From Thermoproteota archaeon (lineage in GTDB: Archaea > Thermoproteota > Methanomethylicia > Methanomethylicales > Methanomethylicaceae), in NCBI GenBank assembly GCA_029887795.1, contig JARXPE010000007.1, forward strand, positions 1 through 51,772: a stretch of DNA of 51,772 nt. The letters run 5' to 3'. Each line of letters begins with the position of its first letter. Positions within the stretch are counted from its first letter, which is position 1. Below are positions 12,901 through 50,635 of the stretch, in pieces. The notes under the pieces are model-generated. The model saw nothing but the letters and a program-made list of their open reading frames with translations. It made no database searches and was not told where the DNA came from. The translations under genes were made by a program, and so were the position numbers.

Positions 12901-13371
12901 TTGAATTTGGGCAAAGGTAAGAGAGTACTCGCCGCGGGCTGCTTCGATCTGCTCCACTATGGGCATCTCAGGTACCTTGAGGAGGCAAAGAAGCTCGGTG
13001 GCGAAGGCGCCGAGCTCATAGTTGTTGTAGCTAGGGACTCCACAATCCTGAACAGAAAGGGCAGACCTCCGGTCATGAAGGAGGAGCATAGAAGGGCTTT
13101 GGTCGAAGCCCTTAAGCCCGTGGATAGAGCAATCTTGGGCGGTACGGATTTTGACACCCTCTCAGTGATTAAAGATGTGAAGCCCGACATAATCGCCCTG
13201 GGCTACGACCAAGACGACCTAGCCGAACTCCTCTCCAAGCAAAACTTGGGCGTAAAGGTGGTAAAGCTTGACAAGTACGGCGAGGTGAGCTCCTCCATGA
13301 TCAGAAAGATCATATATTCTACAAACCCCGTCAAACAAGGACCTTCAACTGGACCAGATCCCCGTCCTTAA
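12901..13371 (+). CDS. ribL: Archaeal FAD synthase (nucleotidyltransferase)
   Basis: AAGCFDLLHYGHLRYLEEAKKLG (HxGH), SSSMIRKI. Confidence 0.88.
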   Translation: MNLGKGKRVLAAGCFDLLHYGHLRYLEEAKKLGGEGAELIVVVARDSTILNRKGRPPVMKEEHRRALVEALKPVDRAILGGTDFDTLSVIKDVKPDIIALGYDQDDLAELLSKQNLGVKVVKLDKYGEVSSSMIRKIIYSTNPVKQGPSTGPDPRP

Positions 13372-14612: not shown

Positions 14613-14678
14613 AGTTTTCCCTCAATACAATGCAGGGGTCCCAGATATCACTTTAATTTTTGCTTTTTTACCTTGTCC

Positions 14679-33108: not shown

Positions 33109-33924
33109 CTATGGAGGGTTGCTTTCAGCCACGATAATGGTGCTAAAGAGCCACCAAGGGTCGTTGAAATTATCCAAGCGCAGCATGTTTATCGGGAATG
33201 TGAATATGCCCTCAATCCTCCAACTCTTGGACAATGCCTCAAAATAGTCATTAATTGAGTATAGGGCGTATTCTTGCTTGATTCTCACTACGTATCTTAA
33301 ATTTTCTCCACTACGCCTATAAAACACTTTTTCAGTCCGCACTCTTGAATTTACAGGATCGTAATTCCATGTGTGAAGCGAAAGAATATCTTCACTGAAT
33401 CTAAACCAGTTCTGAATTGATGGTGAAGAAAGCAACGAATTGAGAAATTTTTCTTTTAAAATATCAACTAGTATTAAAATTCCTTTCTTCCTTATTTTTT
33501 TACATAGGCTTGAGAAAAAAACCCTCATATCATCGACCGTTTTCCAAGCAGGTGCTAGAATGCAAATAGCAGCATCAAATTCACTAGGAGTTGTCGGGTC
33601 AAGGCAGAATTCTTTATAATCGCCCACAAAATAATTTGTATTTTTTGAGACTCCTAGTTTCTTCGCATCTCTCTTGGCTTCCTCAATACATTTTTTCGAG
33701 AGATCTATTCCAGTAACCTCGAAGCCGCAGACCGCCAAGCGGTTGGATATCCGCCCGACCCCGCATCCAAGGTCCAGAATGCGTTTTATTCGGCCCTTCT
33801 TCCGCAGTAACACCTCAATTAGGTCTATATCTCGATCTCCTGTCCAATATTGACTTTTTAGCATCTCGTACCAAAGGTTTTCATCATATCCATATATTTT
33901 GTTACCACTATTAGTCTCGGGCAT
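33109..33924 (-). CDS. Class I SAM-dependent methyltransferase, last gene of the ABC operon
   Basis: Motif I RILDLGCGVGRISNRLAVCGFEVTGIDLS; overlaps upstream ATPase gene by 14 nt. Confidence 0.85.
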   Translation of the reverse strand: MPETNSGNKIYGYDENLWYEMLKSQYWTGDRDIDLIEVLLRKKGRIKRILDLGCGVGRISNRLAVCGFEVTGIDLSKKCIEEAKRDAKKLGVSKNTNYFVGDYKEFCLDPTTPSEFDAAICILAPAWKTVDDMRVFFSSLCKKIRKKGILILVDILKEKFLNSLLSSPSIQNWFRFSEDILSLHTWNYDPVNSRVRTEKVFYRRSGENLRYVVRIKQEYALYSINDYFEALSKSWRIEGIFTFPINMLRLDNFNDPWWLFSTIIVAESNPP

Positions 33925-34861
33925 ACAAATGGCACCTCACCATTCCACCATCGATCAAAAAAGGTAAAGGCCTCCGCGACTCGCAAACAGTAGTAGAATG
34001 CTTGCATCTTGGATGGAAACTACATCCAGATGGAGGCGTGACCATGCTGGGACTCTCTCCCGGTATAGGCAAAAGCCCTCTAGACGGCAACGACAAAAGC
34101 AAAGCCTGAGAATATGGATGTCTTGGAGACTCGAAGAACTCTCTCTTATAGCAAACCTCTACTAGGTCTCCGCAGTAAAGTACACAAATTCTATCTGAGA
34201 CTTCTTTCAGGAAATTGAGGTCATGGGATACAATAATCATAGATTCAAAGTTTTTTCTTGAAATTTTTATGAGCTCTATCACCAGTCGCTTCATACGTTC
34301 ATCTAGCCCCTTTGTGGGCTCGTCCACAAATAAAATCTTGGAGGGTGCAGAGGTTCCCATTGCAACCAAGACGCGCTGAAGTGTTCCGCCGCTTATTTGG
34401 TGCCTATATATCTGTGCCACCTTTGATGGATTTTTTACTCCGAGTTTTCCCAGAAGATCTGATGCCATATTATACCCCTCCTCCTTGGACTTTCCAAAAT
34501 GCTCCATGGGGCGCTCTGAAATTTGAACCCAGTTTCTTATACAAGGGTTTAATGACCCGAAACCCTGAGGGATTATTGAAAAACTTCTACCAAGGATTTT
34601 CTTGAATTCTCTCTCCTTTATATTTAGGATGTTTAGACCGTTATAAAAGATCCTCCCTCTCACCTTGGCGTTTTCCGGGAGCAACCTTAGTGTTGCTTGA
34701 AGTAGGACTGTTTTCCCACTTCCGGACTCACCAACTATTCCAAGAACTTCCCCTCTATAGACTTCAAGGTCTATGCCTCTAAGGGCATTTACTTTGAGTC
34801 CGCCCATGTCAAAGGTGACTTCAATCCCATTGTACTCTAAAAGCGCCCTTGAATCATGCAT
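33911..34861 (-). CDS. Nickel/peptide-type ABC transporter ATPase (DppD/NikD-like)
   Basis: GESGSGKTVLL, ISGGTLQRVLVAMG, LFVDEPTKGLD, C-terminal oligopeptide-type CxxHPRCKH motif. Confidence 0.93.
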   Translation of the reverse strand: MHDSRALLEYNGIEVTFDMGGLKVNALRGIDLEVYRGEVLGIVGESGSGKTVLLQATLRLLPENAKVRGRIFYNGLNILNIKEREFKKILGRSFSIIPQGFGSLNPCIRNWVQISERPMEHFGKSKEEGYNMASDLLGKLGVKNPSKVAQIYRHQISGGTLQRVLVAMGTSAPSKILFVDEPTKGLDERMKRLVIELIKISRKNFESMIIVSHDLNFLKEVSDRICVLYCGDLVEVCYKREFFESPRHPYSQALLLSLPSRGLLPIPGESPSMVTPPSGCSFHPRCKHSTTVCESRRPLPFLIDGGMVRCHLYARD

Positions 34862-35804
34862 ACCTCCAACACCTGACCTTTCTACCCCCATAAACCTCGG
34901 ACTCTGGGGGAGGATATTGGCAGCATACCTCAGAAACTATTTCGCACTCGCCATAGAAACCGCACGGAGAATTTTGTTTGAACTCTGTCTTGGGCGGCAC
35001 TCCCATTAATAATGATTTTGTGTACGGATGAAGTGGCGTTTTTAATATATCACGTGTATATCCAGATTCTACGATCCTTCCACCGAGCATTACAAACATT
35101 TTTTCAGAAACTAATTTTGCAAGCTCCAGGTCATGAGTTAAGAATACGATGCCAATATTCGACTCTGATTGTAAATCAAGTATCGTCCTTACAATCTTTG
35201 CCTGAATGGAGGGATCAAGCATAGAGGTAGGCTCATCGGCTATGATGATCTCAGGGCTTAAGATAAATGCTCTTGCGATGACAACTCTCTGGAGCTCCCC
35301 TCCGCTGACGTTCCTGGGTTTTCTCCTAAGCTGATCCATCCCAATGCCCACTCTTTCGCAGACCTCTTTAACTCTCTCAAATTCATCTTGCTTAGAGCAA
35401 ATCTTTTGTATCCTAAGCGGTTCCGCCAAGCTGTCATAAAGATACCATGTGGGATCGAGAGCGAGGTCGGGGCATTGTGGGATGTATTGAACTCGCATTC
35501 TGAAAACCTTTTTCTCACTTTTGTTTAACTCAGAGAGCTTTTTTCCCTCGAATCTAACCTCTCCAGAATTCGGGGTGATCAATCCGCACAAGATCTTTGC
35601 GAGAGTGCTCTTGCCACTGCCCGACTCGCCAATTATGCACACCTTTTCGCCTTTAAAGATGGAGAAGTTTACGTTCTCCAATGCAACTGTCTTTCTCCTC
35701 TTAAAAGATATATACCATTTAGATACGTGCTCTGCACTTAGAATCACATTGGACTCTAAATTATTCGGAGTTCTTATTCCTGAAAGATCCTGAATTAACC
35801 TCAA
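34854..35804 (-). CDS. Nickel/peptide-type ABC transporter ATPase (DppF/NikE-like)
   Basis: GESGSGKSTLAKILCGL, SGGELQRVVIARA, IIADEPTSMLD; TTG start at 35804 preferred over ORF-track start. Confidence 0.92.
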   Translation of the reverse strand: MRLIQDLSGIRTPNNLESNVILSAEHVSKWYISFKRRKTVALENVNFSIFKGEKVCIIGESGSGKSTLAKILCGLITPNSGEVRFEGKKLSELNKSEKKVFRMRVQYIPQCPDLALDPTWYLYDSLAEPLRIQKICSKQDEFERVKEVCERVGIGMDQLRRKPRNVSGGELQRVVIARAFILSPEIIIADEPTSMLDPSIQAKIVRTILDLQSESNIGIVFLTHDLELAKLVSEKMFVMLGGRIVESGYTRDILKTPLHPYTKSLLMGVPPKTEFKQNSPCGFYGECEIVSEVCCQYPPPESEVYGGRKVRCWRYA

Positions 35805-36637
35805 ATTTTTCCCTCCAAAGATTTCGGACCAATTCGGTATCTCTGCTCCAAACCCATCCCTAATAGAATAAATCCAAGGCTCGTCATAGAGATGGCGATG
35901 CCTGGCGGAACAAAAGTCCACCAGGCTCCTTGCAAAAGCGCACCCCGCGTCATTGCAAAATGTAGGATGGTTCCCCAGCTTGGATTTGTAGGATCGCTTA
36001 GCCCGATGAAGCTCAACCCCGCCTCAAGAAGGATCGCATGGGAGATGCTGAGTACAAATCGTGCCAAGACAACTCCCAATACGTTAGGGAGGATGTGCCT
36101 GAACACGATGTAGATTTTACTTGCATCTATTCCGATTAGGCCCTCTACAAATGTGCTGGATCTAAGTTGCCAGGCACGGGCTCTCACCAGTCTGGCGGTG
36201 GTTGGCCACCAGAGTAGACCGATAACCAAGACAACGTTCCAAAAAGATGGCGACAGGTAGGCTGTCAGAACTATCATGAGTGGCAGTGCGGGAATCACTA
36301 TGAAGAGGTCCGTTAACCAACCCAATATATCATCTAAACTACCCCCGCAGAATCCTGATAAAGCTCCAATTACAGTTCCTATTAGAGTGGATACCAGTGA
36401 TCCTATTATCCCTATGGAAAGTGAAACTCTGCTCCCGCGGAATATTAAAGTCAGAACATCATCACCTAAATCGTCAGTCCCTAAAAGGTTAGATTGTGAA
36501 GGAGGTGAGTAGGGAGATTCTGATCTAGGATAAAAGATCACATTACCAACTACAAACGATAAAATTACCATTACTAAAACGAGCGATATTAAGAGCAACC
36601 CTGTGGTCTCCATAAAGGATGGTTTAATTCCGACCAT
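35801..36637 (-). CDS. ABC transporter permease (DppC/NikC-like)
   Basis: LLGTDDLGDDVLTLIFRGSRVSLSIGIIGS and FRHILPNVLGVVLARF EAA-loop region. Confidence 0.92.
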   Translation of the reverse strand: MVGIKPSFMETTGLLLISLVLVMVILSFVVGNVIFYPRSESPYSPPSQSNLLGTDDLGDDVLTLIFRGSRVSLSIGIIGSLVSTLIGTVIGALSGFCGGSLDDILGWLTDLFIVIPALPLMIVLTAYLSPSFWNVVLVIGLLWWPTTARLVRARAWQLRSSTFVEGLIGIDASKIYIVFRHILPNVLGVVLARFVLSISHAILLEAGLSFIGLSDPTNPSWGTILHFAMTRGALLQGAWWTFVPPGIAISMTSLGFILLGMGLEQRYRIGPKSLEGKI

Positions 36638-37640
36638 TTTCCCTCAACCTTATCCTAGGATCAATTGCATATGATGCAAGATCTGCCAATGCATTAGCCA
36701 GCACAACAATCAAAGCAGTCATGGTAAAAGTTGCTTGCAGCAAGGGGTAGTCCCTCTCCACAACTGCTTGCCACATAGTGTAACCCATCCCGGGCCAGCT
36801 GAATGCTATCTCAACTAATAGTGCCCCTGAAAACGTAAACCCCAACTCAATTGCAGCGATGGATAAAAAAGGAGCAAGGGAGGGGATAAAGAGATGCCTA
36901 ATCTTAAATTTAATATAACTCAATCCCTTTGATTTTGCAGTGATTATGAATGGTTCTTCGGCTATCTCTAGTGTGAGCCCCCTCATTATGATTGCAACAT
37001 AAGCGGCATTAAATAGGGCGATCACACTAAAGGGGAGGATCATGTGGCTGACACCCGTGATTATAGACATTCCGGGGGAGGGCGCCCCTCCAATTGGCGT
37101 AAGGTTGAACCAGAGCGAAAATACAAGAATTGCAACTATGGCCATCCAATAAGGGGGCACCGAATACAACACCATTAGTAAGGATGAAATAGCTTTCTTA
37201 TGGGCCCTTTCGGGGTTAAACCCCAAGTGAAGACCCAGCATCGCCCCTGTCACCAAAGATAACAAGGTCGGAGGCAGAGTCATAAGTAAGGTCAAGGGGA
37301 CTCTCTCCGCTATTATCTCTGCTATTGGTCTTCCATAACTGAACGAGTATCCTAGGTCTCCTCTGAACAGGTTGCCCAAGTAGATGATGAACTGATCAAA
37401 TATTGGTTTGTTCAGTCCGTACTTGGCACTTAAGGATTGTATCAGCTCCGGATTCCTTATCGCCGCTCCGTAAACTTCTTCTCCAAACAGAAAGAGAAGA
37501 GGATCTCCGGGCATCAGTCTTGGCATAGCAAAATTTAGAAATATGATGGTAAAAACTAGAGTAAAATACCTAACAAACTTTCGGATAAAAAAAGATGTAT
37601 TGAGTGACGCTCTCATCGCTGGATCGTTAAGACCTTCCAA
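36624..37640 (-). CDS. ABC transporter permease (DppB/NikB-like)
   Basis: FVRYFTLVFTIIFLNFAMPRLMPGDP, GDLGYSFSYGRPIAEIIAERVPLTLLMTLP, FTFSGALLVEIAFSWPGMG. Confidence 0.93.
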   Translation of the reverse strand: MEGLNDPAMRASLNTSFFIRKFVRYFTLVFTIIFLNFAMPRLMPGDPLLFLFGEEVYGAAIRNPELIQSLSAKYGLNKPIFDQFIIYLGNLFRGDLGYSFSYGRPIAEIIAERVPLTLLMTLPPTLLSLVTGAMLGLHLGFNPERAHKKAISSLLMVLYSVPPYWMAIVAILVFSLWFNLTPIGGAPSPGMSIITGVSHMILPFSVIALFNAAYVAIIMRGLTLEIAEEPFIITAKSKGLSYIKFKIRHLFIPSLAPFLSIAAIELGFTFSGALLVEIAFSWPGMGYTMWQAVVERDYPLLQATFTMTALIVVLANALADLASYAIDPRIRLRENGRN

Positions 37641-37657
37641 TTAGGCAATTACCTCCA

Positions 37658-39280
37658 TCACTTAACAACCACTGAAAACCATGTGTCCTTACCAAGAATT
37701 CCGTACATTGTGTCATAGACGAGCCCACTAACGAGATCGGATCTATAGGGCTGTATTATTTTGCCCCAGTACAAGGGTATGGCATACATATTCTCGGCAT
37801 ACAGATCTTGCAGTTTAGCATAGAGTTCCCTTACGCGGGTCTGGTTGGCAGTCTTTATTATCTCATCGACTACTGAATGGTATACTGGATCGCCCACGTT
37901 CGCCCATCCCATGTTTCTGTTATCGAAGTACAGCGTGCCTGCACCCGCGTACATTATCATACCCCAAAATGTTGTTCTGGAGATTGCTGAATCGAAGTCT
38001 TTAGTGTTCTGAGTGATAGTCTGGAATGTGCTGACGTCCGCCGTCACTATCTGCGTCCTTATCCCTATTTTTTCAAGATCCCTCTTCACGAGCTCCGCGA
38101 GCTTGAGCGACTCAGAAATATCCGATCTAGCCAAGATCCTCATGTTAAAGTCAGTCCCGTTGGGGTATTCCCTCCAGCCATCCCCATTTCGGTCGAGGAA
38201 CCCAATAGAAGAGAGGATCTCGCCAGCATAGGATGCATTCTTCATTAGTTTTGGTTTAGGAACATAATAGTCCCAACAGTCTGGTATCCATCCTCTAGTA
38301 GGGGTCTTGGCATATCCTGCTGATATGTAGTTGACATAATCGCTGTATTCAAGTGCGTAGGATATCGCAATCCTGAACTCGGTCATATTATAGGGATATC
38401 GCATGCAGTTAAACCACAAACTGTTGTCCACCCCAAAGTTCGGCAAGATGATCATCGTTACGTTCTTATCTTCTAACAAGGAAGGCACATAGATCGGATC
38501 TATGCCCTTCGCATATGCATATGTGGCCGCAATATCGCCTTTCTTAAGTGCCATTAACATGGCGTCCGTAGTCGTGTACATCTTTAGAATTACTTTATCC
38601 ACATTGGGCGGCCCCCTCCAGTAATCCTTGTTTGAGAGGAATGTCATTGTGCCCGATGCTGCATCGAAGCCGCCGTAAACAAATGGTCCGCATCCGACGT
38701 TCCTATCGTTACCGGTGTATGATGCTGGTTCTGCGACGCTCGACCATATATGTTTGGGCATCAATCTCGTTGCAGCCAACCCAACCACGAACGAGTTCCA
38801 TTCTTTGCTAAGTGTTACCTCGACGGTTCTATTATCCAGTGCCGATGCGGATTGAACAAACTGGAAGTGTGTTGCGTAGTTGGGATCCTTTTGTTTGAGG
38901 TACATTATCGTGAATGCCACATCCTCGGCTGTAACTCTTTGCCCATCGTGCCATTTCGTATCCACAATCAGGGTCAACCTCCAAACCTTTGAATCACTTG
39001 TAGTCCAGTTTACTAAGTATGGAACTATGTTTCCCGAGGCATCCACTCTCGCCAAAGGATCAAGAATAAAGCAGGCTGAGAAGATCCCCATGTAATAGTC
39101 TTTGACGTAGTTGTCCGTCTTAACGACATTTACGGTTCCTATTGTTAGCGTCCTCGTTACATTTTGAGTCTGCTGTGTGGTTTGGTTAGGGTTAAAAAAT
39201 CCTGTGGGCGCCGATACCATCACACCAACTATTGCTACTATGATTATTCCCGCCGAAATTAGCAAATAAGTCTTTTTCAA
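37658..39280 (-). CDS. ABC transporter substrate-binding protein (SBP_bac_5 family; NikA/DppA-like)
   Basis: Signal/TM N-terminus; WRLTLIVDTKWHDGQRVTAEDVAFTI; FRIAISYALEY; TTG start with upstream GGTGAG. Confidence 0.92.
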   Translation of the reverse strand: MKKTYLLISAGIIIVAIVGVMVSAPTGFFNPNQTTQQTQNVTRTLTIGTVNVVKTDNYVKDYYMGIFSACFILDPLARVDASGNIVPYLVNWTTSDSKVWRLTLIVDTKWHDGQRVTAEDVAFTIMYLKQKDPNYATHFQFVQSASALDNRTVEVTLSKEWNSFVVGLAATRLMPKHIWSSVAEPASYTGNDRNVGCGPFVYGGFDAASGTMTFLSNKDYWRGPPNVDKVILKMYTTTDAMLMALKKGDIAATYAYAKGIDPIYVPSLLEDKNVTMIILPNFGVDNSLWFNCMRYPYNMTEFRIAISYALEYSDYVNYISAGYAKTPTRGWIPDCWDYYVPKPKLMKNASYAGEILSSIGFLDRNGDGWREYPNGTDFNMRILARSDISESLKLAELVKRDLEKIGIRTQIVTADVSTFQTITQNTKDFDSAISRTTFWGMIMYAGAGTLYFDNRNMGWANVGDPVYHSVVDEIIKTANQTRVRELYAKLQDLYAENMYAIPLYWGKIIQPYRSDLVSGLVYDTMYGILGKDTWFSVVVK

Positions 39281-39309
39281 TCACTCTCACCTTATGATAT
39301 TACTTTTTT

Positions 39310-39333
39310 AAAAGTTAGTAACACTTAACTTTT
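39310..39333. promoter_or_regulatory. Inverted repeat AAAAGTTA-N8-TAACTTTT over the ABC-operon promoter
   Basis: 8-bp perfect arms; overlaps TTTTAAAA TATA-like element. Confidence 0.45.
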
Positions 39334-39352
39334 TTGTTTCTTATGAAACAAA
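39333..39352. promoter_or_regulatory. Candidate operator palindrome TTTGTTTC-TTAT-GAAACAAA
   Basis: Arms TTTGTTTC/GAAACAAA, matched by the palindrome upstream of hemA. Confidence 0.6.
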
Positions 39353-39430
39353 GAACTCAAGTTTTTGTTCTGACAATTTAAAAATGGTCTCATATCTCAT
39401 GGATGACATACCGTTAAAAAATCAGGTTTA

Positions 39431-39451
39431 ATTAAATTGACTCAATTAAAT
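39431..39451. promoter_or_regulatory. Palindrome ATTAAATTGACTCAATTAAAT just upstream of sirC
   Basis: 10 positions either side of a central C with one mismatched pair; about 28 nt before the TTG start. Confidence 0.4.
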
Positions 39452-39478
39452 AATTAGGTTGGTTATGGGGGTAATGCC

Positions 39479-39940
39479 TTGGTAAAAAAGGGGGTGCTTC
39501 TCTACTTTAAAACAGAGGGAATGAGGGTTTTGGTCGTAGGATCGGGCAATATTGGGCGGAGAAAAATCTTTAAACTAATCAATGGCGGGGCCGATGTGAC
39601 AGTTGTAACGAAAGGAAGACTAGATGGAATCGAATCTTTCGGTGCAAAAATCGAGATCGGCGACGGTCTTGAGTACCTTTCAAAAAATATAGATCAATTC
39701 GATATGGTCGTCGCAGCCACAAACGATCCGGAATTAAATTCTAAGATCTCCAAGTTAGCCATGCACCACAGAAAGCTGGTAAATTCCGTCACTTCTTCTG
39801 AAGAATGCAATATAATGTTTCCTGCTATTCTGGATTACAAAAAGTTTCAGATAGGGGTAACGACAGGCGGCTCAGATCCTAAACTCGCCAAAAGGGTAAA
39901 GGAAAAATTGTCGCAATTGATAAAACCAGAAGAATTCTGA
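39479..39940 (+). CDS. Precorrin-2 dehydrogenase (SirC/CysG N-terminal type)
   Basis: MRVLVVGSGNIGRRKIFKLINGGADVTVV, VVAATNDPELNSKI, NSVTSSEECNIMFPAILDYKKFQIGVTTGGSDPKLAKRVKEKL. Confidence 0.9.
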   Translation: MVKKGVLLYFKTEGMRVLVVGSGNIGRRKIFKLINGGADVTVVTKGRLDGIESFGAKIEIGDGLEYLSKNIDQFDMVVAATNDPELNSKISKLAMHHRKLVNSVTSSEECNIMFPAILDYKKFQIGVTTGGSDPKLAKRVKEKLSQLIKPEEF

Positions 39941-39946
39941 CCAATG

Positions 39947-41314
39947 TCACCTGCGAATATACTCCCTGCAGGTCGAAAGGAACTTGGCTGGCACCTTAGG
40001 GCATGTCATGTAGTGGAGATGAGTATACATTCCCACGGTTCTATGGACCAAGGCTCCGTCCAATCCATCCCTGATCCCATTTCCCCTGAGAACTTTAAAG
40101 ACAAACTCTGATCCAATGTTTTCTACATATGAATGGTGAAATTCGTGTCCCTTTAGAGTAATTCCGACATCTGATATGGGGCTTTCAGCTTTACCCTCCA
40201 GCTCAACGTAACTCAGGGCCTTCGGTTGGTTAGAAAAATAAACATCCCCATCGAATGCGCCAACCATATTGCGTTTTTCTCCGTTGTAGTTTATTGACCT
40301 GCAAAGGTATATTAAGCCACCACATTCCCCGACCACCGGCATCTCATCTAAGATCCTATCTTTTATGGATTTGATGAGGGGCTGGTTTGCTTCTAGTTCT
40401 CTTGCGAACACCTCTGGATATCCACCACCGATCAAAATTCCAGAGATATCGTTTCCAATGGTCCCGTCTGATAAGCTGTTCATTACAGATATTTCGGCTC
40501 CCATCCCCCTCAGCACAGCTAAATTGTCATAGTAATAGAATGAGAAGGGCGCATCCATGAAAATTCCAATTTTTGTCCGTCCGACGCTTTGGGGAATCTC
40601 CATCACATCACCATCGATTTCTGGACAGGAGTTCATTAATTCAAGAAGCCTCTCTAAATCCAGACGAGGCTCAAGCAGGTTGGTTGCATTATTTATCATA
40701 AGATCTGTGTCTGAGAGCTCATTGGGCGTAATAAGGCCAAGATGTCGCTTTTTTATAACCAGTGTTGAAGAACGGTATAGTACACCAAGGATGGGTACTT
40801 TGGTGTAGTGTTGGATTGCCCTCCTCAGTTTTTCCTCATGTAAACTATCCCTAACGTAGTTTAAAATCACGCCAGCAATGTTCACTTTTCTGTCTAAGGC
40901 CTGAAAACCAATTATTTGTGCAGCCGCGCTCCTATTCAGACTCTTGCAGTCTAACACCAAAATTACAGGGGCTGATAAGATTTTTGCAACATGAGCGGTG
41001 CTCCCTAGATCTCCAATTGGGGACTCGCCCTCATAAAGCCCCCTCACCCCTTCTATCACCGCAAAATCGGTGCCTTTGCAGCCCGATAGGAATACGCGCC
41101 TTAAGGTGTTTTCGTCCATCATCCACGAGTCTAGATTCCGACAATGCCTTCCGGACACCTTGCTTAAGTACATCGGGTCGATGAAATCTGGTCCTATCTT
41201 GAATGGCTGTACTTTAAAACCTCTCTTTCTCATTATCTTTATAATCGCAGCTGCAATCAATGTTTTGCCAGAGTCGCTGGATGTTGCCGAAATTATAACT
41301 CTAGGGATTCTCAC
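39947..41314 (-). CDS. cfbB: Ni-sirohydrochlorin a,c-diamide synthase
   Basis: CobB/CbiA family: TSSDSGKTLIAAAI, KIGPDFIDP, GECGGLIYL; placed within a cfb cluster. Confidence 0.92.
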   Translation of the reverse strand: MRIPRVIISATSSDSGKTLIAAAIIKIMRKRGFKVQPFKIGPDFIDPMYLSKVSGRHCRNLDSWMMDENTLRRVFLSGCKGTDFAVIEGVRGLYEGESPIGDLGSTAHVAKILSAPVILVLDCKSLNRSAAAQIIGFQALDRKVNIAGVILNYVRDSLHEEKLRRAIQHYTKVPILGVLYRSSTLVIKKRHLGLITPNELSDTDLMINNATNLLEPRLDLERLLELMNSCPEIDGDVMEIPQSVGRTKIGIFMDAPFSFYYYDNLAVLRGMGAEISVMNSLSDGTIGNDISGILIGGGYPEVFARELEANQPLIKSIKDRILDEMPVVGECGGLIYLCRSINYNGEKRNMVGAFDGDVYFSNQPKALSYVELEGKAESPISDVGITLKGHEFHHSYVENIGSEFVFKVLRGNGIRDGLDGALVHRTVGMYTHLHYMTCPKVPAKFLSTCREYIRR

Positions 41315-42086
41315 CGAAGATCTCCTCCAGCTCCTTTATGGACAACCAGTTAGGAACCTTTGCCTGCTTATTATTAAATATCGATATCGAAATGGACCTG
41401 ATCGCGCGCGAAACTTCTGAGTCATGAAAAATTTCTATGGAAGTTTTTCTTTTTTTATCCGCAAAGATCAGTTCCTCGGAATAAGGCACGCTTCCAATGA
41501 TCGGGATTCCTATCCTCTTTGAGAACTCTTCAATGTACCTCATCCCTTTTGAGGTTGCCTTATTGTAGATGATTCCACAAGCCGCTGCCTTAATAGAAGC
41601 GAGACCTCTGCAGATGTTGTTTGCCGCATATATCGACATGAACTCGTCTGAAGTTACAATGATGACACCCTCGGCATATTTTTCTTTCACAACCACTGCG
41701 AGCCCGCCGCAGACAATATCTGCTGGGACATCAAATATCACAAAATCAAAGCTCTCGATCTTTAATTTCTGCAGTAAATACCCAATCCCTAAGATTAATC
41801 CTCTCCCAGCGCACCCAACTCCTGGCTCAGGACCCCCTATCTCAACACAATGTACTCCGTTGATTCCTTGGAACAAGAAACTCTCGGGTGCTGGGTTCTT
41901 ATCTATCTTCATCAGTTCCAAGAGCGGATCTATCTTTTTACCCAAGATGTTGGTCGCCGAGTCTGATTTCGGGTCGCACCCCACCAGCAATATTTTTAAT
42001 CCCATCTCTCCTAGAGCGGCAGCGATGTTGGATGCAAGAGTGGACTTGCCTATCCCACCCTTTCCGTATATGGCGACAGATTTCAA
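41301..42086 (-). CDS. cfbC: Ni-sirohydrochlorin a,c-diamide reductive cyclase, NifH-like reductase component
   Basis: MKSVAIYGKGGIGKSTLASNIAAAL, GGPEPGVGCAGRG, FDVPADIVCGG. Confidence 0.93.
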   Translation of the reverse strand: MKSVAIYGKGGIGKSTLASNIAAALGEMGLKILLVGCDPKSDSATNILGKKIDPLLELMKIDKNPAPESFLFQGINGVHCVEIGGPEPGVGCAGRGLILGIGYLLQKLKIESFDFVIFDVPADIVCGGLAVVVKEKYAEGVIIVTSDEFMSIYAANNICRGLASIKAAACGIIYNKATSKGMRYIEEFSKRIGIPIIGSVPYSEELIFADKKRKTSIEIFHDSEVSRAIRSISISIFNNKQAKVPNWLSIKELEEIFGENP

Positions 42087-43171
42087 CCCTTATCCTCCCT
42101 CGATACCATCCTTATACTCTCCCCCAGTATGGACTTGCAGATCCTTCTATTGCCCAAAGATGCCCTGTGGGCATGGCGCTCATTTATAACGTAATCATAT
42201 CCTAGGGACTTTAGGTTGTAAGTTGCTCTTGTACCGGAGCTCACAGCAACCGTTCTTATTTTACCTTCCACCGCCACTGCATGCGGTATTCCCAATATTA
42301 TTGCTAGATCAGGTTTAACTTCCATTATGTACTCCGTTGCCCTCTCACCAGAGACGGGATACTCGTCCAAACCCCCCGTGATCCTCTCAATGAAAATACC
42401 TTTGCAACTCAACTCCCTAAGTATCTCTTTCGAATATGATCTTATCCTGGGGAGTCCCACATTTGGGTCTAGATTGGCTATAAAACGGAGATTTCCACTT
42501 TTTCCCTTCTTGGCATCGCTCAACGCAAGGAGTGTATCGGCGTATATAAATGCAGTCTCCTTTTTGGCATTAAGAATGCATGCGACATCGCCGCCATCCC
42601 TCAGAGTTCGAAGTATCTGGCGTGCGACCATGTTCGGATCGTCTCCTTGGCAATTGCCGATGTACTCAGATCTGGCGGTCCCCCTCCTGCGTTCTACCAA
42701 GGCTGCCATTTCCAGCATGTACTTTTGCCTCTCGTACTCGTCCTGAGTTATGAGACCCGCATTAGTGGCCTCTTTCAGTACCTCTATTGCTCCTACGGTG
42801 TTGTCTCCTGATCCGCTATGGACACTGCAACATAAGCATTTTTCAATAACACCTGCTTCTATTGCCGCCTTTTTTAGATTCTCGCCGATTATCATACTGG
42901 CACATGTTCCAACCACGCCGATCAAATGCGGATTGAACAACTCATCAACCCTCTTAAGAACCTTTGATAATCTCCCCTCCCCTCCAAAGACCAATTCATT
43001 ATCTGACAGGGCCGTCGTCACTATCTTTACCCCCTCCTTCTCAAGTAGCCTAGCCGGACCGAAACAGCAACCCGATGGTCCATGCAAAACGATCACATCG
43101 GCGTCAAGATCCCTGAGCATATACATGGCAGCCGCAATTGGGCTTGGTCTGGGGTGGATTATTATGGACAT
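42083..43171 (-). CDS. cfbD: Ni-sirohydrochlorin a,c-diamide reductive cyclase, NifD-like catalytic component
   Basis: NifD/oxidoreductase type 1 fold: IIHPRPSPIAAAMYMLRDLDADVIVLHGPSGCCFGPARLLE, VVGTCASMIIGENL; internal start at 43171 avoids extension over cfbE. Confidence 0.92.
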   Translation of the reverse strand: MSIIIHPRPSPIAAAMYMLRDLDADVIVLHGPSGCCFGPARLLEKEGVKIVTTALSDNELVFGGEGRLSKVLKRVDELFNPHLIGVVGTCASMIIGENLKKAAIEAGVIEKCLCCSVHSGSGDNTVGAIEVLKEATNAGLITQDEYERQKYMLEMAALVERRRGTARSEYIGNCQGDDPNMVARQILRTLRDGGDVACILNAKKETAFIYADTLLALSDAKKGKSGNLRFIANLDPNVGLPRIRSYSKEILRELSCKGIFIERITGGLDEYPVSGERATEYIMEVKPDLAIILGIPHAVAVEGKIRTVAVSSGTRATYNLKSLGYDYVINERHAHRASLGNRRICKSILGESIRMVSREDKG

Positions 43172-43172
43172 T

Positions 43173-44468
43173 TTATCCCCTCTCGAGACGGAGGGTCGGC
43201 ACTTTTGCTTTTTCAAAATAGACCTCGTTTTCTGACCTCTTTGTCATTAACGGTTTCAGGGCTTCGCCAAGCTCACCAAAAAGGTGTATCTCTTCGAAAT
43301 TACTTGAGTTGAGGATTTCCGCCAATGCCTTAGGCTGCACAGATCCGCATGTTGTCTTCAGCCTTCCCCCTAATTCTAACCTTGCTGGCGGCAAAACCTC
43401 AATGTAATCTCTAATAGATGTTGCCACAACCTTTTCGTTTATTGCTGGACTCCTGTTAAGGACTAGTGGGCCCGACGGATCCTCTAAAACCATCTTTTTG
43501 CCGAACACCTCCGGAGGAAATTCCACATGATCTTCAAGTTCTCCAAAAAATCTTGCGATCGAAACTCCAACAAGCATATTTTCTAAATGCTGTCTGCCAA
43601 CAGGCCTTTCGTGGGCCTCAACTGAAATTCTTGAGTATGCGGGCCCTCCCATTGTCATGAATCCCTCGAATATTGCCACAAACTCGATGTTGCCAACACC
43701 AATCCGGATCCTATCTGCGGAAACTTCAGATGAATAATGCTGTGTCGAGAAGTATTGGGTTCCCGAAATCCCTCTCAACAAAGGGTCGTCCGCGTTTATT
43801 AGGACTGTAGATTTTGACTTTTTGTTCTTCACCATTGAAATCTTTGCCATCAGCGCCGAAGAAGAACCCTTCGCTATCGAGTAATTGTCATACACATTCT
43901 TTATTATTCCTAGGTCAGCCATCCCAGTCCCGCCTAGCGAAACCTCAAAGATGGCGAGATCTGGCTCCTTCGGGCAAAGCTTTAAAGCCCTTATTATATT
44001 TGCAGGAGTCGAGCTGACATCTTTTAATAGGATCTTCTCATGACCTTCTTCCGTTAAGTATATTCCGTCGCTTGTAAGACTCAGTATGGAATAGTTGTCC
44101 CTCAATATTGAGATTGCACATTTTACAGCAGTCGTCTTACCGAAGCTTCCAGTGATCTCCACAATGGGAAACTTAATTTTGTCATAGATTAGCATTTTAA
44201 CGGCTTCATGGTGCGTCACCATCTTCCCATTACTGCAAGTGAACATTGAAGAGGGAAAATGGACTGGCCTCACTATTAGATCGTATTTGGACAAATCAAA
44301 AGAATTTGGCAACTCTGACTCGATCTTAAACTCTCCCGAGTATTTGTCATAGTCCTCTTTCTCTAAAGTTCTATAGACATCTATGCATGTGACGTTATCT
44401 CCCCTTTCACTGAATGCCTCGGATATTGTCAATCCGCCATGTGTAGCGTCTATCACGAGCACCTTCAA
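43173..44468 (-). CDS. cfbE: Coenzyme F430 synthetase (Mur-ligase family)
   Basis: Mur-ligase-like VEITGSFGKTTAVKCAISIL, VLINADDPLLRGI; within cfb cluster. Confidence 0.9.
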   Translation of the reverse strand: MKVLVIDATHGGLTISEAFSERGDNVTCIDVYRTLEKEDYDKYSGEFKIESELPNSFDLSKYDLIVRPVHFPSSMFTCSNGKMVTHHEAVKMLIYDKIKFPIVEITGSFGKTTAVKCAISILRDNYSILSLTSDGIYLTEEGHEKILLKDVSSTPANIIRALKLCPKEPDLAIFEVSLGGTGMADLGIIKNVYDNYSIAKGSSSALMAKISMVKNKKSKSTVLINADDPLLRGISGTQYFSTQHYSSEVSADRIRIGVGNIEFVAIFEGFMTMGGPAYSRISVEAHERPVGRQHLENMLVGVSIARFFGELEDHVEFPPEVFGKKMVLEDPSGPLVLNRSPAINEKVVATSIRDYIEVLPPARLELGGRLKTTCGSVQPKALAEILNSSNFEEIHLFGELGEALKPLMTKRSENEVYFEKAKVPTLRLERG

Positions 44469-44857
44469 TCCCTTAAAGCCTCCGCAATTCTGTCAGATAG
44501 TATGTCTGCTATACGGTCGTCTTCGCCTATTGGTTCGCTGAGTACTACAGCTATTCTCTTTTTTCCAAAAATGAGAGTTCCTGTCTTTGAACCTTTGGGC
44601 AGCCCCAAAATTTTTGGTATATCCTGATCTACATGAACCCCCCTCGTGAGAAAGACCGGCTGAACTATAACTCTATCAACGCCCGACTCCGCCATTTCTT
44701 CTAATACCGTTTGTAGAGGCGGCTCATTGATCTGTACGAATGAGTACCTCACAAGGGGGTATTTTTTCCTAATTTTTTTGGCAAAATATTCTATCGCACT
44801 TTTATTGTAGGGCTCTTTGCTCCCATGTCCCACCAAAACGACTCCAAACTTATTCAT
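44465..44857 (-). CDS. cfbA: Sirohydrochlorin nickelochelatase (small CbiX type)
   Basis: VVLVGHGSKEPYNKSAIEYFAKKI, VQPVFLTRGVHVDQDIP; 130 aa. Confidence 0.93.
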   Translation of the reverse strand: MNKFGVVLVGHGSKEPYNKSAIEYFAKKIRKKYPLVRYSFVQINEPPLQTVLEEMAESGVDRVIVQPVFLTRGVHVDQDIPKILGLPKGSKTGTLIFGKKRIAVVLSEPIGEDDRIADILSDRIAEALRD

Positions 44858-44858
44858 A

Positions 44859-45605
44859 TTACATCACCTTAATGAAAGAGGAAACTCCCGCAATAGAATG
44901 ATCTGGGGCAACCAGAGGGTCTATGCCGAATGATTTCAGCGCTTTAGCAGTTTCAGGTCCGATTGCCACCACACGCGTCCTAGTCAGAAGTTCTTCCAAT
45001 TCCCTGCAACCTGTGTAGGGTAAAAATTTCCACATTAGCTCAAATGATGCGCGCGAAGTAAAGACTACAAAATCCGCACCAGCCCTTAACTCCTTGAGAA
45101 GCTCTTCGACCCCTTCCAAATTCAATTTGGGCGAATAAATGCGATATTCATCCACAGGAATGCCCTTACTGAAAAGCTCATCGAACATCGAATTATCGGC
45201 AAAACTGCTTCTTATCAAGGCCAAAGATGAGAATGACGATTTCATATTTCCACTAGTAATATATGCGCTAAGTGCTTTACTCGTGTACTCATCTGGCATC
45301 TCGACGTTTCTGAGCCCAAACTTAGCAAGAGACTTTTTTGTTGAAGGTCCGACCGCGAACAGCCTCATCTCTGATAGTATTCTTATGATCTCTTTATTCG
45401 GATTAACAATCTCTATAGCTCTAGGGCTCATGAATGCCGCCGAGTCGTGGCGCCTTTCCAGTAATCTCTCCTTCAATATCCGGATCTCTCTAATGTTTGG
45501 TAGTAGCCTTATTGTGCTTATCCTCACAGGGTCATAACCTGATTCCAGAAAAGGTATGGGATCAAAAGGCGAAACTGCGGTCAATATAACTCTTCGGTGC
45601 CTCAT
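44859..45605 (-). CDS. hemD: Uroporphyrinogen-III synthase
   Basis: AFMSPRAIEIV, AVGPSTKKSLAKFG, DFVVFTSRASFELMWKFL, AIGPETAKALKSFGI. Confidence 0.88.
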   Translation of the reverse strand: MRHRRVILTAVSPFDPIPFLESGYDPVRISTIRLLPNIREIRILKERLLERRHDSAAFMSPRAIEIVNPNKEIIRILSEMRLFAVGPSTKKSLAKFGLRNVEMPDEYTSKALSAYITSGNMKSSFSSLALIRSSFADNSMFDELFSKGIPVDEYRIYSPKLNLEGVEELLKELRAGADFVVFTSRASFELMWKFLPYTGCRELEELLTRTRVVAIGPETAKALKSFGIDPLVAPDHSIAGVSSFIKVM

Positions 45606-46321
45606 TTAGCGAACAGCCCCACGACTCTACCTACTACTACGACCCCAGGATCTTTACCATTGTAGCACTTCTCTGCGAGGTCCCTAAGGCGCGTAATTTC
45701 CCTCTCGACCGAACCATTCCTCGAAGTTATGATCGCCGCGTAATTGTCAGGATCCGCGCCCCCTTCAATGAGCTTCTTAGCCACAAGATCAAGCTTCTTC
45801 ATCGTCATAAGTATCACTAACGTTCCAGGAAATTTGGCATGGGTCTTCAGATATTCGTCTTCGTCTTTTTCATTTGCTAGGCTTCCACTCAGAATGACTA
45901 TTGAAGAAGAGACCCCCCGCATAGTTAAAGGAATCTCTGCCAGCGTTGGCATTGCAACAGCGGATGTTAGACCGGGTACGACCTCAACATCTATTCCTGC
46001 TTTTCTGAGCGCCTGCAGTTCTTCGCCACCCCTCCCGAACACAAAAGGGTCGCCGCTCTTCAAGCGAACCACACAAAGCCCTTCATTGGCAAGCCTTATC
46101 ATCAAATTCGTAATGTCTTCCTGTCTTTCGGGACCGTCTCTTGGTTGCTTTCCGACGTAGATTTTCATGATCGCATTTTTTGCAATATTGAGCAGCCCCT
46201 CGTCAACAAGGCGATCATAAAGTATTACATCGGCCTCGGAAATGATTTTATAAGCCCTTAAAGTGAGATTATCCATTCCCAAAACACCTGCACCTACCAG
46301 ATAGACCTTACCCTTCACCAT
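45602..46321 (-). CDS. cobA: Uroporphyrinogen-III C-methyltransferase
   Basis: MVKGKVYLVGAGVLGMDNLTLRAYKIISEADVILYDRLV, VRLKSGDPFVFGRGGEE, VVPGLTSA. Confidence 0.95.
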   Translation of the reverse strand: MVKGKVYLVGAGVLGMDNLTLRAYKIISEADVILYDRLVDEGLLNIAKNAIMKIYVGKQPRDGPERQEDITNLMIRLANEGLCVVRLKSGDPFVFGRGGEELQALRKAGIDVEVVPGLTSAVAMPTLAEIPLTMRGVSSSIVILSGSLANEKDEDEYLKTHAKFPGTLVILMTMKKLDLVAKKLIEGGADPDNYAAIITSRNGSVEREITRLRDLAEKCYNGKDPGVVVVGRVVGLFAK

Positions 46322-47240
46322 ATTCCCTCCAGAACCAGCGAATCTCATTATCATTCATAACAACTTCAGCAGCTTTCCTTCCAGCACCTTCAGGATCGCC
46401 CCTCGGAAAGCTGAATGTAAATACCTTAGATTTTGACCCGTCCAAGGCATAAAGACCGCATATAGCCCTCAAAAAATTACCATCAGCCCTAGCCGTAAAC
46501 CCGACGGGTGCGGAGCAGCCCGATCCGATAATTTTTAGAAATTCCCTCTCAGCCAAAACCTCTTCCATATCATCTGGCGAGTTTATCCTCGATGCCAATG
46601 ATCTTATATCAAAGTCTTGGCTCCTTGCAGTTACGGCTAGCGCGCCCTGACCCGGACTTGTTGGAAAAAGTTCGATTGTCATCTGCTCCCATTTTCCTCC
46701 GAACCCCAGCCTGATCAATGCAGCCTCTGCAATAACTATCCCATCATATTTCTCTTCCATCAGGCACCGAATTCTGGTGTCTACATTGCCCCTCAAAGGG
46801 ACTATGTTAAGATCTCTTCTTAAACACTTGATCTGAGCGGCCCTCCTTAAGCTACTGGTACCTATGGTAGCTCCTTTGGGCATGGAGCTTAGCGATGGGT
46901 ATCTGTTGGAGACGAAGGCATCGCATGGGGAAAGCCTCTCCGGAACAGCCACAATGGAAACTCCCACTGGAAGTGATGTCGGCACGTCTTTCATGCTGTG
47001 GACTGCGAGATCAATTTCGCCTTTAAGGAGTGCTTCGTCTATCTCTCTCTCGAAGATCCCTTTTCCAATTTCTTTTATTGTTGATTCCTCTATTTTATCT
47101 CCGGTCGTCTTTATCTTCACCACAGTAAATTTAAAATTGCAATCATTTAACTCCTGTAACCTCTTAATCACACACTCTGTCTGTATGAGTGCCAAACGGC
47201 TGCCTCTAGTCCCGACTCTGACCTCCCTCAATCCTACCAC
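46308..47240 (-). CDS. hemC: Hydroxymethylbilane synthase
   Basis: VRVGTRGSRLALIQTECVI, DLAVHSMKDVPTSLP, GTSSLRRAAQI, GSGCSAPVG. Confidence 0.96.
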   Translation of the reverse strand: MVGLREVRVGTRGSRLALIQTECVIKRLQELNDCNFKFTVVKIKTTGDKIEESTIKEIGKGIFEREIDEALLKGEIDLAVHSMKDVPTSLPVGVSIVAVPERLSPCDAFVSNRYPSLSSMPKGATIGTSSLRRAAQIKCLRRDLNIVPLRGNVDTRIRCLMEEKYDGIVIAEAALIRLGFGGKWEQMTIELFPTSPGQGALAVTARSQDFDIRSLASRINSPDDMEEVLAEREFLKIIGSGCSAPVGFTARADGNFLRAICGLYALDGSKSKVFTFSFPRGDPEGAGRKAAEVVMNDNEIRWFWREYGEG

Positions 47241-48487
47241 CCGTCGACATTAACAGCTGATAGGGTCGCCTGTAAAGTCTCTTCTATGTCCTTGTCAACA
47301 TGTGCGGTAGATAGAAAGCAACATTCGAACTGAGACGGAGGGAGGAAAACGCCCCTCTCCAACATTAAACTGTGAAATTTCTGGAATCTGTCCACACGAG
47401 ACCTCCTAGCACTCTCGGCGTCCTTAACCGCATTTTGCGTAAAGAATATGGTGAACATGGAACCTATCCTGTTTATCTGGATCGGAATGTCCGCATCCCC
47501 AAATATTTCCTCGATGCCCTTACACAGAAATTCTGTTTTGAATTCCAAGTCTGAATATATGTGGTCTTCGAGCTTCCTCAAGACGGCCAGACCTGCAGAC
47601 ATGGTCACCGGATTTCCATTAAAAGTTCCTGCATTGTATACCCTGCCCGCTGGAGCAACCATCTCCATTAACTCCCTCTTCCCTCCAAAAACCCCAACTG
47701 GAAATCCGCCGCCAATCACCTTTCCCAGTAGGGTTATATCGGGTTTTATATTGAATACTCTCTGAGCCCCTCCCCTCGAAAGGCGGAAGCCCGTAATCAC
47801 CTCATCGAAAATCAAAATCGCTCCCGCCTCGTCACATGCTCTTCTAACCTCTTGCAGGAATCCCTTCTCTGGAGGTATTACCCCCATGTTACCCATCACC
47901 GGCTCCACGATTACGCAAGCAACATCTTCGTTAATTCCGTCCAATTCAGAAAAGTCGTTGAATGGAATCACTTTTGTTTTGTCGAGTAAAGTAGTGGGTA
48001 TGCCATCGCTGGCAGGATATTTTTTAATGCCGACTCCGTTAACCAACAGCGAATCAACAGCTCCGTGGTAGCATCCGTCGAATTTTACTACAACATCTCT
48101 CTTTGTGAACGCTCTGGAGAGTCTGATTGCACTCATTGCTGCTTCCCCTCCCGAGTTCACAAATCTGACCATCTCCATGGAGGGTACTGCCCTAATGATC
48201 TCCTCTGCGAGCTCCAGCTCCGCCAAATGAGGAGTCCCAAAGACTGTGCCCTTAAAAATCTGATCTTTAACGAACTCCAACAAAAAGCTGGGCGTATGGC
48301 CAAATATCAGAGGTCCATATGCCATGCAGTAGTCGATCAGCTCTCTTCCATCTTCTGTAAATAGGCGGGAGCCATGCGCGGAAGATGTAAAAAACGGGTA
48401 GGGTCTAAAAGATCTAACGGGGCTACTCACGCCACCAGGGAGGACCTTTCTGCTTCTTGAGAAAAGATCATTAGACCTCATCTGCAT
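47234..48487 (-). CDS. hemL: Glutamate-1-semialdehyde 2,1-aminomutase
   Basis: PGGVSSPVRSFR, VRFVNSGGEAAMSAIRLSRAFT, FDEVITGFRLSRGGAQ, LLGKVIGGGFPVG. Confidence 0.96.
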   Translation of the reverse strand: MQMRSNDLFSRSRKVLPGGVSSPVRSFRPYPFFTSSAHGSRLFTEDGRELIDYCMAYGPLIFGHTPSFLLEFVKDQIFKGTVFGTPHLAELELAEEIIRAVPSMEMVRFVNSGGEAAMSAIRLSRAFTKRDVVVKFDGCYHGAVDSLLVNGVGIKKYPASDGIPTTLLDKTKVIPFNDFSELDGINEDVACVIVEPVMGNMGVIPPEKGFLQEVRRACDEAGAILIFDEVITGFRLSRGGAQRVFNIKPDITLLGKVIGGGFPVGVFGGKRELMEMVAPAGRVYNAGTFNGNPVTMSAGLAVLRKLEDHIYSDLEFKTEFLCKGIEEIFGDADIPIQINRIGSMFTIFFTQNAVKDAESARRSRVDRFQKFHSLMLERGVFLPPSQFECCFLSTAHVDKDIEETLQATLSAVNVDGW

Positions 48488-49449
48488 CCTTCCCTCAAAA
48501 TACCTATTGCCTCAGGGGAAAAGTATGAAATTATAATGTCCGCCCCTGCCCTTTTTATTGCCATTAGAGTTTCCATCAGAACTTCTCTCTCGGGCGTGCC
48601 AGTACTCTTGCAGTATTCTCTAATCATGACATATTCGCCGCTCACTTGGTATGCCGCCAACGGACACCTTAAAATCCTGCGCAGATCACTTATAATGTCA
48701 AGATATGGCATTGCTGGCTTGACCATTACTATGTCTGCCCCCTCCTTTATATCTTGGACAGCCTCAATTACCGCCTCTCTCCTATTTCTGAAGTCCATCT
48801 GGTATGAGGAGCGATCGCCGAATGTGGGAGCGGATGAAGCGACATCTCGGAAAGGCGAGTACAAATAGGACCTATACTTTGTTGAATAGGACATTATTCC
48901 TAAATCATAAAAACCAGCCTCGTCCAGCGCCTCCCTTATCGCCAAGACCTGCCCATCCATCATGGCAGAGGGAGCAACAATATCCGCCCCGGCCTCAGCA
49001 TGACTCACTGCTATTCTAGAAAGTATCGAAAGCGTCTTACTCCTGTTAATCTTGCCACCTTCTACTATGCCACAATGACCGTGATCCGTATATTGACAGA
49101 GACAAACGTCTGTTAATATATTGATCGCAGAGAAGGACTCTTTTATCATCCTTATCGCCCGCTGAGTTACCCCATCCTTGCTGTAAGCAGCCGTGCCCAA
49201 AGGATCTTTCGATGAGGGTATGCCAAATATCAGGAAAGATCTTATGCCAGACTCTACGTAATTGGAAATTTTTTCCAATAAACCGGACAATGGTATTTTT
49301 TCCATACCTCCCCAGCGTGAAGCCTCAACCTCCCCATGTTCCTTTACAAATATTGGAAAAACGAATTTATCGGGCATCAGGCTAGTTTCAGATACCAGAT
49401 CTCTAATTGCTTTATTTCTCCTAAGTCTGGATGTAATCGTTCTCATCAT
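48478..49449 (-). CDS. hemB: Delta-aminolevulinic acid dehydratase (zinc-type)
   Basis: TDVCLCQYTDHGHCG Zn-binding motif, VAPSAMMDGQV, MVKPAMPYLDII. Confidence 0.96.
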   Translation of the reverse strand: MMRTITSRLRRNKAIRDLVSETSLMPDKFVFPIFVKEHGEVEASRWGGMEKIPLSGLLEKISNYVESGIRSFLIFGIPSSKDPLGTAAYSKDGVTQRAIRMIKESFSAINILTDVCLCQYTDHGHCGIVEGGKINRSKTLSILSRIAVSHAEAGADIVAPSAMMDGQVLAIREALDEAGFYDLGIMSYSTKYRSYLYSPFRDVASSAPTFGDRSSYQMDFRNRREAVIEAVQDIKEGADIVMVKPAMPYLDIISDLRRILRCPLAAYQVSGEYVMIREYCKSTGTPEREVLMETLMAIKRAGADIIISYFSPEAIGILREGCR

Positions 49450-50635
49450 TAAAGACTCCCTCCGCCTTTATTCCAGAATTTGCTAATGGCAAAATAATAT
49501 CCCGCATAAAAGCATAAGTGAGCTCATCTAAGGCCTTCCTTTGATCATCCGTAAAGTCGAACCTTTTGAACGCTAGTTGAAGAGCGCGCCTTCTCTTAAC
49601 CTCAGCCCACCTCATGAGCCTCTCTAAAGTTATATCTGTTCTATCTAATTGGAATCTATCCTTTAGCGCTTTTAAAGATCGTTCTATAATTTCTTTAGCC
49701 TCATGTATCGAATTCTCTCTGACTTCGAGATTTCTCCTTGCGATGCTATTTATATGATCTAGGTCCACAAGATCTATGCCTGGAATTTCCTTTATCCTTT
49801 CATCCACTCCCCTGGGGTTCGATACGTCCACGATCAAAAGTCTTTTTCTAACATCAAAAGTTTCGAAGTCCTCCTTTGTTAAGACTAGGTGGGGGGACGA
49901 AGTTGCGCATACAATTGCGTCGGCGTCAATAATAACCTCCCTTAACCTACCGAAATTGACAGCGATCCCGCCCACCTCATTAGCCAGTCGCTCTGCTCGA
50001 GAGTAAGTCCTATTGGCAACAAAGACAGTCACGGTCCCTCTCCGAGGTATGGATTTTGCTATCATGCATCCTATCTTCCCGGCGCCTATTATGACCAATT
50101 TCTTCTTTTCGAGAGACCCAATTTCATTCGATATGGTCTTTATAACGAGGTTTCCTAGAGAAACAGAGCCTTTACAAATGGATGTTTTTCGTCTTACCAT
50201 CCTACCGCAATTTATTGCCGCAACAAATATGGACTCCATTATAGTTTTAGCAGTTCCATAAGCCTTTGCGAGTTTTAAGCTATCTTCAATTTGGTGTAAG
50301 ATTTCTGTCTCTCCAACTATGACCGATTCTAACCCTGCGGCCACATAAAAAAGATGCCTGAGCGCCTCTTCTCCCTCAAAAAGTTCTCCATAAGAATCGA
50401 TTTGATATTTGCTCCTACTGACCTTCATTAAAAATTCCTTAAGTAAGCCTCCGTTTATATTCGGTCCCACTGCATAGAATTCCACTCTGTGACATGTTTG
50501 AACTATAACGCATTCCTCAGCCCCTTCCTCCTTGAGTCCATTTAAAGCTGAGCCAATATCCTTCAGAGTGAAACTTTCCAGTATCCTTACCGGGGATTTT
50601 TTGTGGCTTATTGATAAGCAATGTATTGATAGCAT
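49421..50635 (-). CDS. hemA: Glutamyl-tRNA reductase
   Basis: CVIVQTCHRVEFYAVG, HLFYVAAGLESVIVGETEIL, VIGAGKIGCMIA. Confidence 0.96.
   Translation of the reverse strand: MLSIHCLSISHKKSPVRILESFTLKDIGSALNGLKEEGAEECVIVQTCHRVEFYAVGPNINGGLLKEFLMKVSRSKYQIDSYGELFEGEEALRHLFYVAAGLESVIVGETEILHQIEDSLKLAKAYGTAKTIMESIFVAAINCGRMVRRKTSICKGSVSLGNLVIKTISNEIGSLEKKKLVIIGAGKIGCMIAKSIPRRGTVTVFVANRTYSRAERLANEVGGIAVNFGRLREVIIDADAIVCATSSPHLVLTKEDFETFDVRKRLLIVDVSNPRGVDERIKEIPGIDLVDLDHINSIARRNLEVRENSIHEAKEIIERSLKALKDRFQLDRTDITLERLMRWAEVKRRRALQLAFKRFDFTDDQRKALDELTYAFMRDIILPLANSGIKAEGVFNDENDYIQT

Follow-up and report, generated by a model that had tools for sequence, protein, structure and literature searches.

A methyltransferase gene beside the F430 genes of Methanomethyliaceae, candidate sixth component of an ABC importer of the SBP5 family

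Two described ABC importers stand closest to the locus considered here. NikABCDE, the nickel importer of Escherichia coli, belongs to the same ABC family and has the same gene set – an SBP_bac_5 substrate-binding protein (SBP), two permeases and two ATPases – in an operon that runs nikA–E and then nikR, without a methyltransferase; we take Arg137 and His416 to be the ligand residues of its NikA. CntABCDF, which imports staphylopine–metal complexes, is a member of the same transporter family. On the enzyme side, the methyltransferases UbiG, BchM and CpaM are the closest sequence-profile matches to the one discussed here (MTase), though only over the SAM domain, while the fold type of 1Y8C, 3D2L, 1WZN, PsmD and glycine N-methyltransferase matches it across nearly the whole chain. 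A literature search, which covered few subscription papers, found no paper on this importer–MTase module or on F430 in Methanosuratincola.

The window – the whole 51,772-nucleotide stretch of DNA that was analysed – comes from a host genome (G000) of 1.25 Mb that is 92% complete and carries its McrA gene, accompanied (as judged by eye) by mcrB and mcrG, on another contig. It contains an importer operon and, to the right of this, a hemA-to-cfbB operon with the complete cfb set:

33109–33924, minus strand: class I SAM-dependent methyltransferase (MTase), final gene of the importer operon (ORF, NCBIfam, Pfam, AlphaFold2 model, fold match, tree)
33911–34891, minus strand: ABC ATPase, OppD/NikD-like, with an oligo_HPY domain, overlapping the MTase start (ORF, NCBIfam, Pfam)
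34854–35921, minus strand: ABC ATPase, OppF/NikE-like; coordinates of the longest ORF, the true start being probably downstream (ORF, NCBIfam, Pfam)
35801–36637, minus strand: ABC permease of the NikC/OppC type, BPD_transp_1 (ORF, NCBIfam, Pfam)
36624–37640, minus strand: ABC permease of the NikB/OppB type, BPD_transp_1 (ORF, NCBIfam, Pfam)
37658–39280, minus strand: SBP_bac_5 substrate-binding protein resembling Opp4A, CntA and NikA, under all equivalog cut-offs (NCBIfam, Pfam, PDB matches, NikA alignment)
39479–39940, plus strand: divergent precorrin-2 dehydrogenase, CysG N-terminal domain (ORF, NCBIfam)
39947–44857, minus strand: F430 genes in the transcription order cfbA, cfbE, cfbD, cfbC, cfbB (family scan; sequence and conserved order)
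44859–50635, minus strand: uroporphyrinogen III and precorrin-2 genes in the transcription order hemA, hemB, hemL, hemC, cobA, hemD (named from sequence)
33109–50635, no single strand: 18-gene block of distinct composition (GC3, congener comparison)

Among the F430 proteins, CfbB and CfbC alone were family-scanned, with F430_CfbB and F430_CfbC as their top matches, both under the strict cut-offs of those models; the names of CfbD, CfbE and CfbA rest on sequence and on conserved order.

The MTase reading frame starts with ATG, encodes 271 residues and includes the SAM motif ILDLGCGVGRISNRLA; its first 14 nt are also the last 14 nt of the upstream ATPase gene. Matches above cut-off to Pfam Methyltransf_31/25/11, a Rossmann domain and a glycine-rich motif I identify the product as a class I SAM-dependent methyltransferase, and intact relatives in other genomes, at ~32–62% identity, mark it as a real gene. 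An earlier note on this DNA, which had described a gene with a clear class I SAM motif at the end of an ABC operon, overlapping an ATPase gene by 14 nt, is thereby confirmed. The same note set the protein apart from the known enzymes of F430 and sirohydrochlorin, which holds, as it falls below every NCBIfam equivalog cut-off among the matches listed. It scores 56.8 bits against a cut-off of 102.95 for UbiG (TIGR01983), 49.5 against 158.9 for BchM (TIGR02021; Mg-protoporphyrin O-methyltransferase, a tetrapyrrole methylase) and 48 against 180 for CpaM, its C-terminal domain remaining unmatched. Searches of PHROGs and plasmids returned generic methyltransferases only. The AlphaFold2 model (pLDDT 84, pTM 0.83), a check that the earlier note had proposed, resembles small-molecule methyltransferases: its nearest folds, N/C-methylating or uncharacterised, are 1Y8C, 3D2L, 1WZN, PsmD, CcbJ and glycine N-methyltransferase. 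Against the fold type introduced above TM-scores are ~0.6–0.67, yet identity is only 11–20%, and the conserved motifs YGYDEELW and NDPWW belong to the MTase's own clade. Other methyltransferase genes, on host contig C2, look by eye like those of HemK-, KsgA- and similar housekeeping enzymes, unrelated to it.

Along the minus strand the operon reads SBP, permease B, permease C, ATPase, ATPase, MTase, all tightly packed, and this packing, together with the overlaps, suggests that the MTase is co-transcribed with the transporter. With SBP_bac_5, two BPD_transp_1 and two ABC_tran proteins in one operon, the transporter is an SBP5 (peptide/opine/nickel) ABC importer. Among the matches listed, its proteins stay below all NCBIfam equivalog cut-offs; those for NikA, B, C, D and E, which set NikABCDE apart from the window proteins, are missed as well (NikA, for example, 84.4 against 393 bits). 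The SBP has Opp4A as its closest NCBIfam match and CntA, likewise below cut-off, as its second; among its PDB matches, proteins that bind peptides or sugars outrank NikA, and its predicted fold has a pLDDT of 45. Aligned with E. coli NikA, it conserves the Arg137 position, whereas His416 falls in a gap, in an alignment that is uncertain near Trp398; such a pattern, weakly aligned as it is there, would be in line with the binding of an entire chelate and not of bare metal. As the SBP has neither an aligned His416 nor a nickel equivalog score, it is context only that points to nickel. In contrast to the Cnt system, no metallophore-biosynthesis genes were seen alongside, a methyltransferase standing in their place, and no chelator-biosynthesis gene lies adjacent to the operon.

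The 18-gene block differs in composition from its surroundings: GC3 is 0.41 in the MTase gene and 0.41–0.53 from there through hemA, against 0.57–0.72 in the flanking genes measured (0.59–0.67 just left of the junction). Two congeners, G001 and G002, are collinear with the window, at 95–96% protein identity, up to CPSF-KH and then diverge; the 6.4 kb that follow CPSF-KH in G001 contain nothing of the block, and the whole block was not found in three congeners. The drop in GC3 and the divergence after CPSF-KH thus make the MTase the edge gene of the block, which looks horizontally acquired – a candidate cofactor island – or lost in the congeners.

Orthologues were sought in 61 relatives and then in 40 genomes of the class Methanomethylicia, nearly all of them draft assemblies in which absences can reflect gaps; a contig search with a family alignment recovered the MTase carriers, a single-protein query none. 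The MTase has orthologues in nine family genomes, the host included – among the named carriers are Methanomethyliaceae SKYB85, Methanosuratincola subterraneus Ch88, M. petrocarbonis V4 and Methanomethylicus mesodigestus V1 – and in one genome outside the family (G023). By these named relatives the host is placed in Methanomethyliaceae, class Methanomethylicia. Wherever ATPase and MTase genes adjoin, their reading frames overlap in all resolved cases. The resolved family orthologues lie beside F430 genes, in three arrangements, so that the cfb-neighbourhood conservation which the earlier note had asked about does hold within the family. G016 and the near-identical G014 and G004 match the window order (cfbB, CysG_N, SBP–permB–permC–ATPase–ATPase–MTase), and G010 has window-type parts divided over contigs; G013 has its six-gene operon facing cfbA–cfbE; and in G015, whose contig matches M. 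mesodigestus V1, the MTase adjoins CysG_N and cfbB without transporter genes. No SBP orthologue was found in the G015 genome, so the enzyme can exist apart from the transporter. G019 and G020 hold fragments of the locus; compared with a 99%-identical locus, G020 (L047:10160-10190) lacks 4.65 kb reaching from inside the SBP to inside the MTase, possibly through a genuine deletion and possibly through misassembly, and 8 bp of sequence are shared at the join.

Matches to MCR alpha occur throughout the 22 family genomes, those found in G011 and G018 being divergent only; cfbD was found in 11, hemB in 10 and the MTase in nine. The MTase tracks hemB, present in 9/9 genomes with the MTase and absent from 12/13 without it (both genes 9, MTase only 0, hemB only 1, neither 12; Fisher p 2e-5, relatedness and incompleteness ignored), and likewise the SBP (7, 2, 0 and 13 in the same order; p 2e-4, with the same two factors ignored). 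Several genomes of this set stand out in their own right. Six of family f1 (G001, G002, G003, G005, G006 and G007), up to 98% complete, have mcrA, while cfbD and hemB were not found in them, and may be auxotrophic for F430; in some related MAGs, HemBCD or precorrin-2 genes were reported as missing by a survey of 2021 (PMC8351635). Three others, G009, G012 and G008 (L084, L085 and L086), retain cfbA–E intact with no hemB found in the genome, and possibly import a tetrapyrrole precursor. Finally, G011, G013, G018 and G021 (L079, L083, L080 and L082) encode, alone or beside a canonical copy, a divergent McrA ~41% identical to that of the host, possibly alkyl-CoM reductase-like.

Beyond Methanomethyliaceae, searches of 398 genomes of the phylum and 257 of the class to which G070 belongs added G070 and G524, bringing the coupled set outside the family to three genomes. 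G023, of the same class but another family and 95% complete, has the complete six-gene operon (SBP–permB–permC–ATPase–ATPase–MTase), and no mcrA, cfbD or hemB was found in this draft genome. Contamination is an unlikely source of its module, as the tetranucleotide distance of the contig from the genome mean, 0.137, lies inside the range of the genome's own chunks, although bins are themselves partly built by composition. In G070, a 97% complete draft genome of another class in which no mcrA was found, the order is ATPase–ATPase–MTase–SBP–permB–permC, with an SBP reading frame split near its 3' end; an aldehyde ferredoxin oxidoreductase family gene adjoins this module (L157:6329-8200), and a similar-looking one, by eye, lies at 13693-15000. 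G524 preserves the module in part, as MTase–SBP–permB–permC–ATPase up to the contig end. The orders of G000 and G070 are circular permutations of one order, as is probably that of G524.

In a maximum-likelihood tree, nine MTases – that of G015 and eight coupled to the transporter – group as a single clade with 100/100 support, and 20 homologues that were found without such an operon fall outside it; the coupling is therefore old. The G023 enzyme groups with those of G000 and G013, so its gene has probably moved between lineages. By comparison, then, the MTase is shown to be a member of the operon, coupled to the transporter within a single clade, with the module also in genomes that yielded no mcrA; and between lineages the module seems to travel unaccompanied by F430 genes (cfbD and hemB having been searched for in G023, and mcrA in G023 and G070).

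What the enzyme methylates is a matter of weighing several readings. One of the two roles proposed in the earlier note is F430 tailoring, in which the MTase would methylate F430 or a nickel-tetrapyrrole intermediate to give a methylated F430 in these methanogens. The position of the gene beside cfb in the resolved Methanomethyliaceae carriers (in all three arrangements, including that of G015 without a transporter), its tracking of hemB and the sub-threshold match of its SAM domain to BchM, among others, are in keeping with this, as is the description of the enzymes that install F430 modifications as otherwise unknown (PMC9081873). Yet the gene does not appear restricted to MCR/F430 organisms, as orthologues in the same operon type occur in the draft genomes G023 and G070, neither of which yielded mcrA. 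Nor does MCR register its presence: McrA of G000 and G001 are 99.6% identical though G001 lacks the MTase, and no McrA alignment column splits carriers from non-carriers, differences in N-terminal start site aside. The note's parallel with 17(2)-methylthio-F430 of ANME-1 likewise finds no support, since the host McrA segment GGSQRAAV, aligned with Gln400 of the Methanothermobacter enzyme, retains at this alpha-400 position the Gln that Val replaces in ANME-1, accommodating the modified cofactor (PMC9118554), and the dimethyl-F430 of an ethane oxidiser is ascribed to a CobM2-family enzyme (PMC9118554; PMC11411713), of another family than the MTase. The McrA comparison may be compatible with a small methyl group on F430; still, with the module in genomes where no mcrA was found and MCR alike with or without the MTase, the case for tailoring is weak, and we regard it as very unlikely.

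Alternatively, the MTase could make a secreted or cytosolic metal chelator from a common metabolite, the importer retrieving the chelator once loaded. Its tight coupling with an Opp/Nik/Cnt-like importer and a predicted fold like that of small-molecule N/C-methyltransferases agree with such a role, which we nevertheless consider unlikely: a chelator is rarely made by a single methylation, and none of the loci seen pairs the module with an exporter or a further biosynthetic gene. An unrelated or general substrate (a lipid, quinone or peptide, or a compound to be detoxified), or import of something other than a metal, such as a peptide that the MTase modifies, would fit the rank of Opp4A and of peptide and sugar binders ahead of NikA among the SBP matches, and the gene of the aldehyde ferredoxin oxidoreductase family that adjoins the G070 module; against it speak the place beside the F430 genes, conserved across Methanomethyliaceae, and the transporters of metal types that relatives have near cfb, making it quite unlikely. 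These last transporters are ZnuA/ABC-3 in G012, CbiM/CbiQ in G030 and FecCD in G015, and they make a metal role at this position likely. The FecCD/Peripla_BP_2 importer operon of G015, near the cfb cluster (L045:11831-17079), itself includes a class I methyltransferase gene (12904-13710) between SBP and permease genes, a second importer–methyltransferase pairing.

The reading that we prefer, and to which we give about an even chance, is that the MTase is a sixth component of an SBP5-family importer of metal chelates (or peptide-like ligands), its substrate being the ligand or carrier taken up, with the module feeding nickel to F430 synthesis in Methanomethyliaceae. The importer would bring in a metal–chelate or peptide-like ligand or carrier; the MTase, as a cytosolic small-molecule enzyme, would methylate it, for example at a chelating N, O or S; and methylation would release the metal or leave the carrier unable to exit or to rebind. 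In Methanomethyliaceae, the module would have been recruited to the F430 cluster, most likely supplying nickel to the chelatase CfbA. That the cargo is nickel, that the ligand becomes methylated and that the metal is released are steps that we infer from this genomic setting. More tentative is the stronger version, in which a dedicated cytosolic methyltransferase is a fixed sixth component of the importer in several archaeal lineages and alkylates the imported chelator so as to free its metal, for F430 nickel in Methanomethyliaceae. Of the two proposals in the earlier note, modification of a small-molecule nickel carrier taken up by the transporter thus fits better, with nickel as its presumed cargo; what it said of the operon, of novelty relative to known enzymes and of the cfb neighbourhood stands, and F430 tailoring is disfavoured.

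If the preferred reading is true, an importer family that is very common would gain an enzyme that processes its cargo, and the way in which little-studied methanogens obtain nickel for their central cofactor would come into view. It would also halt the spread of a plausible, probably wrong annotation as an F430-tailoring enzyme, and define a six-gene unit for testing.
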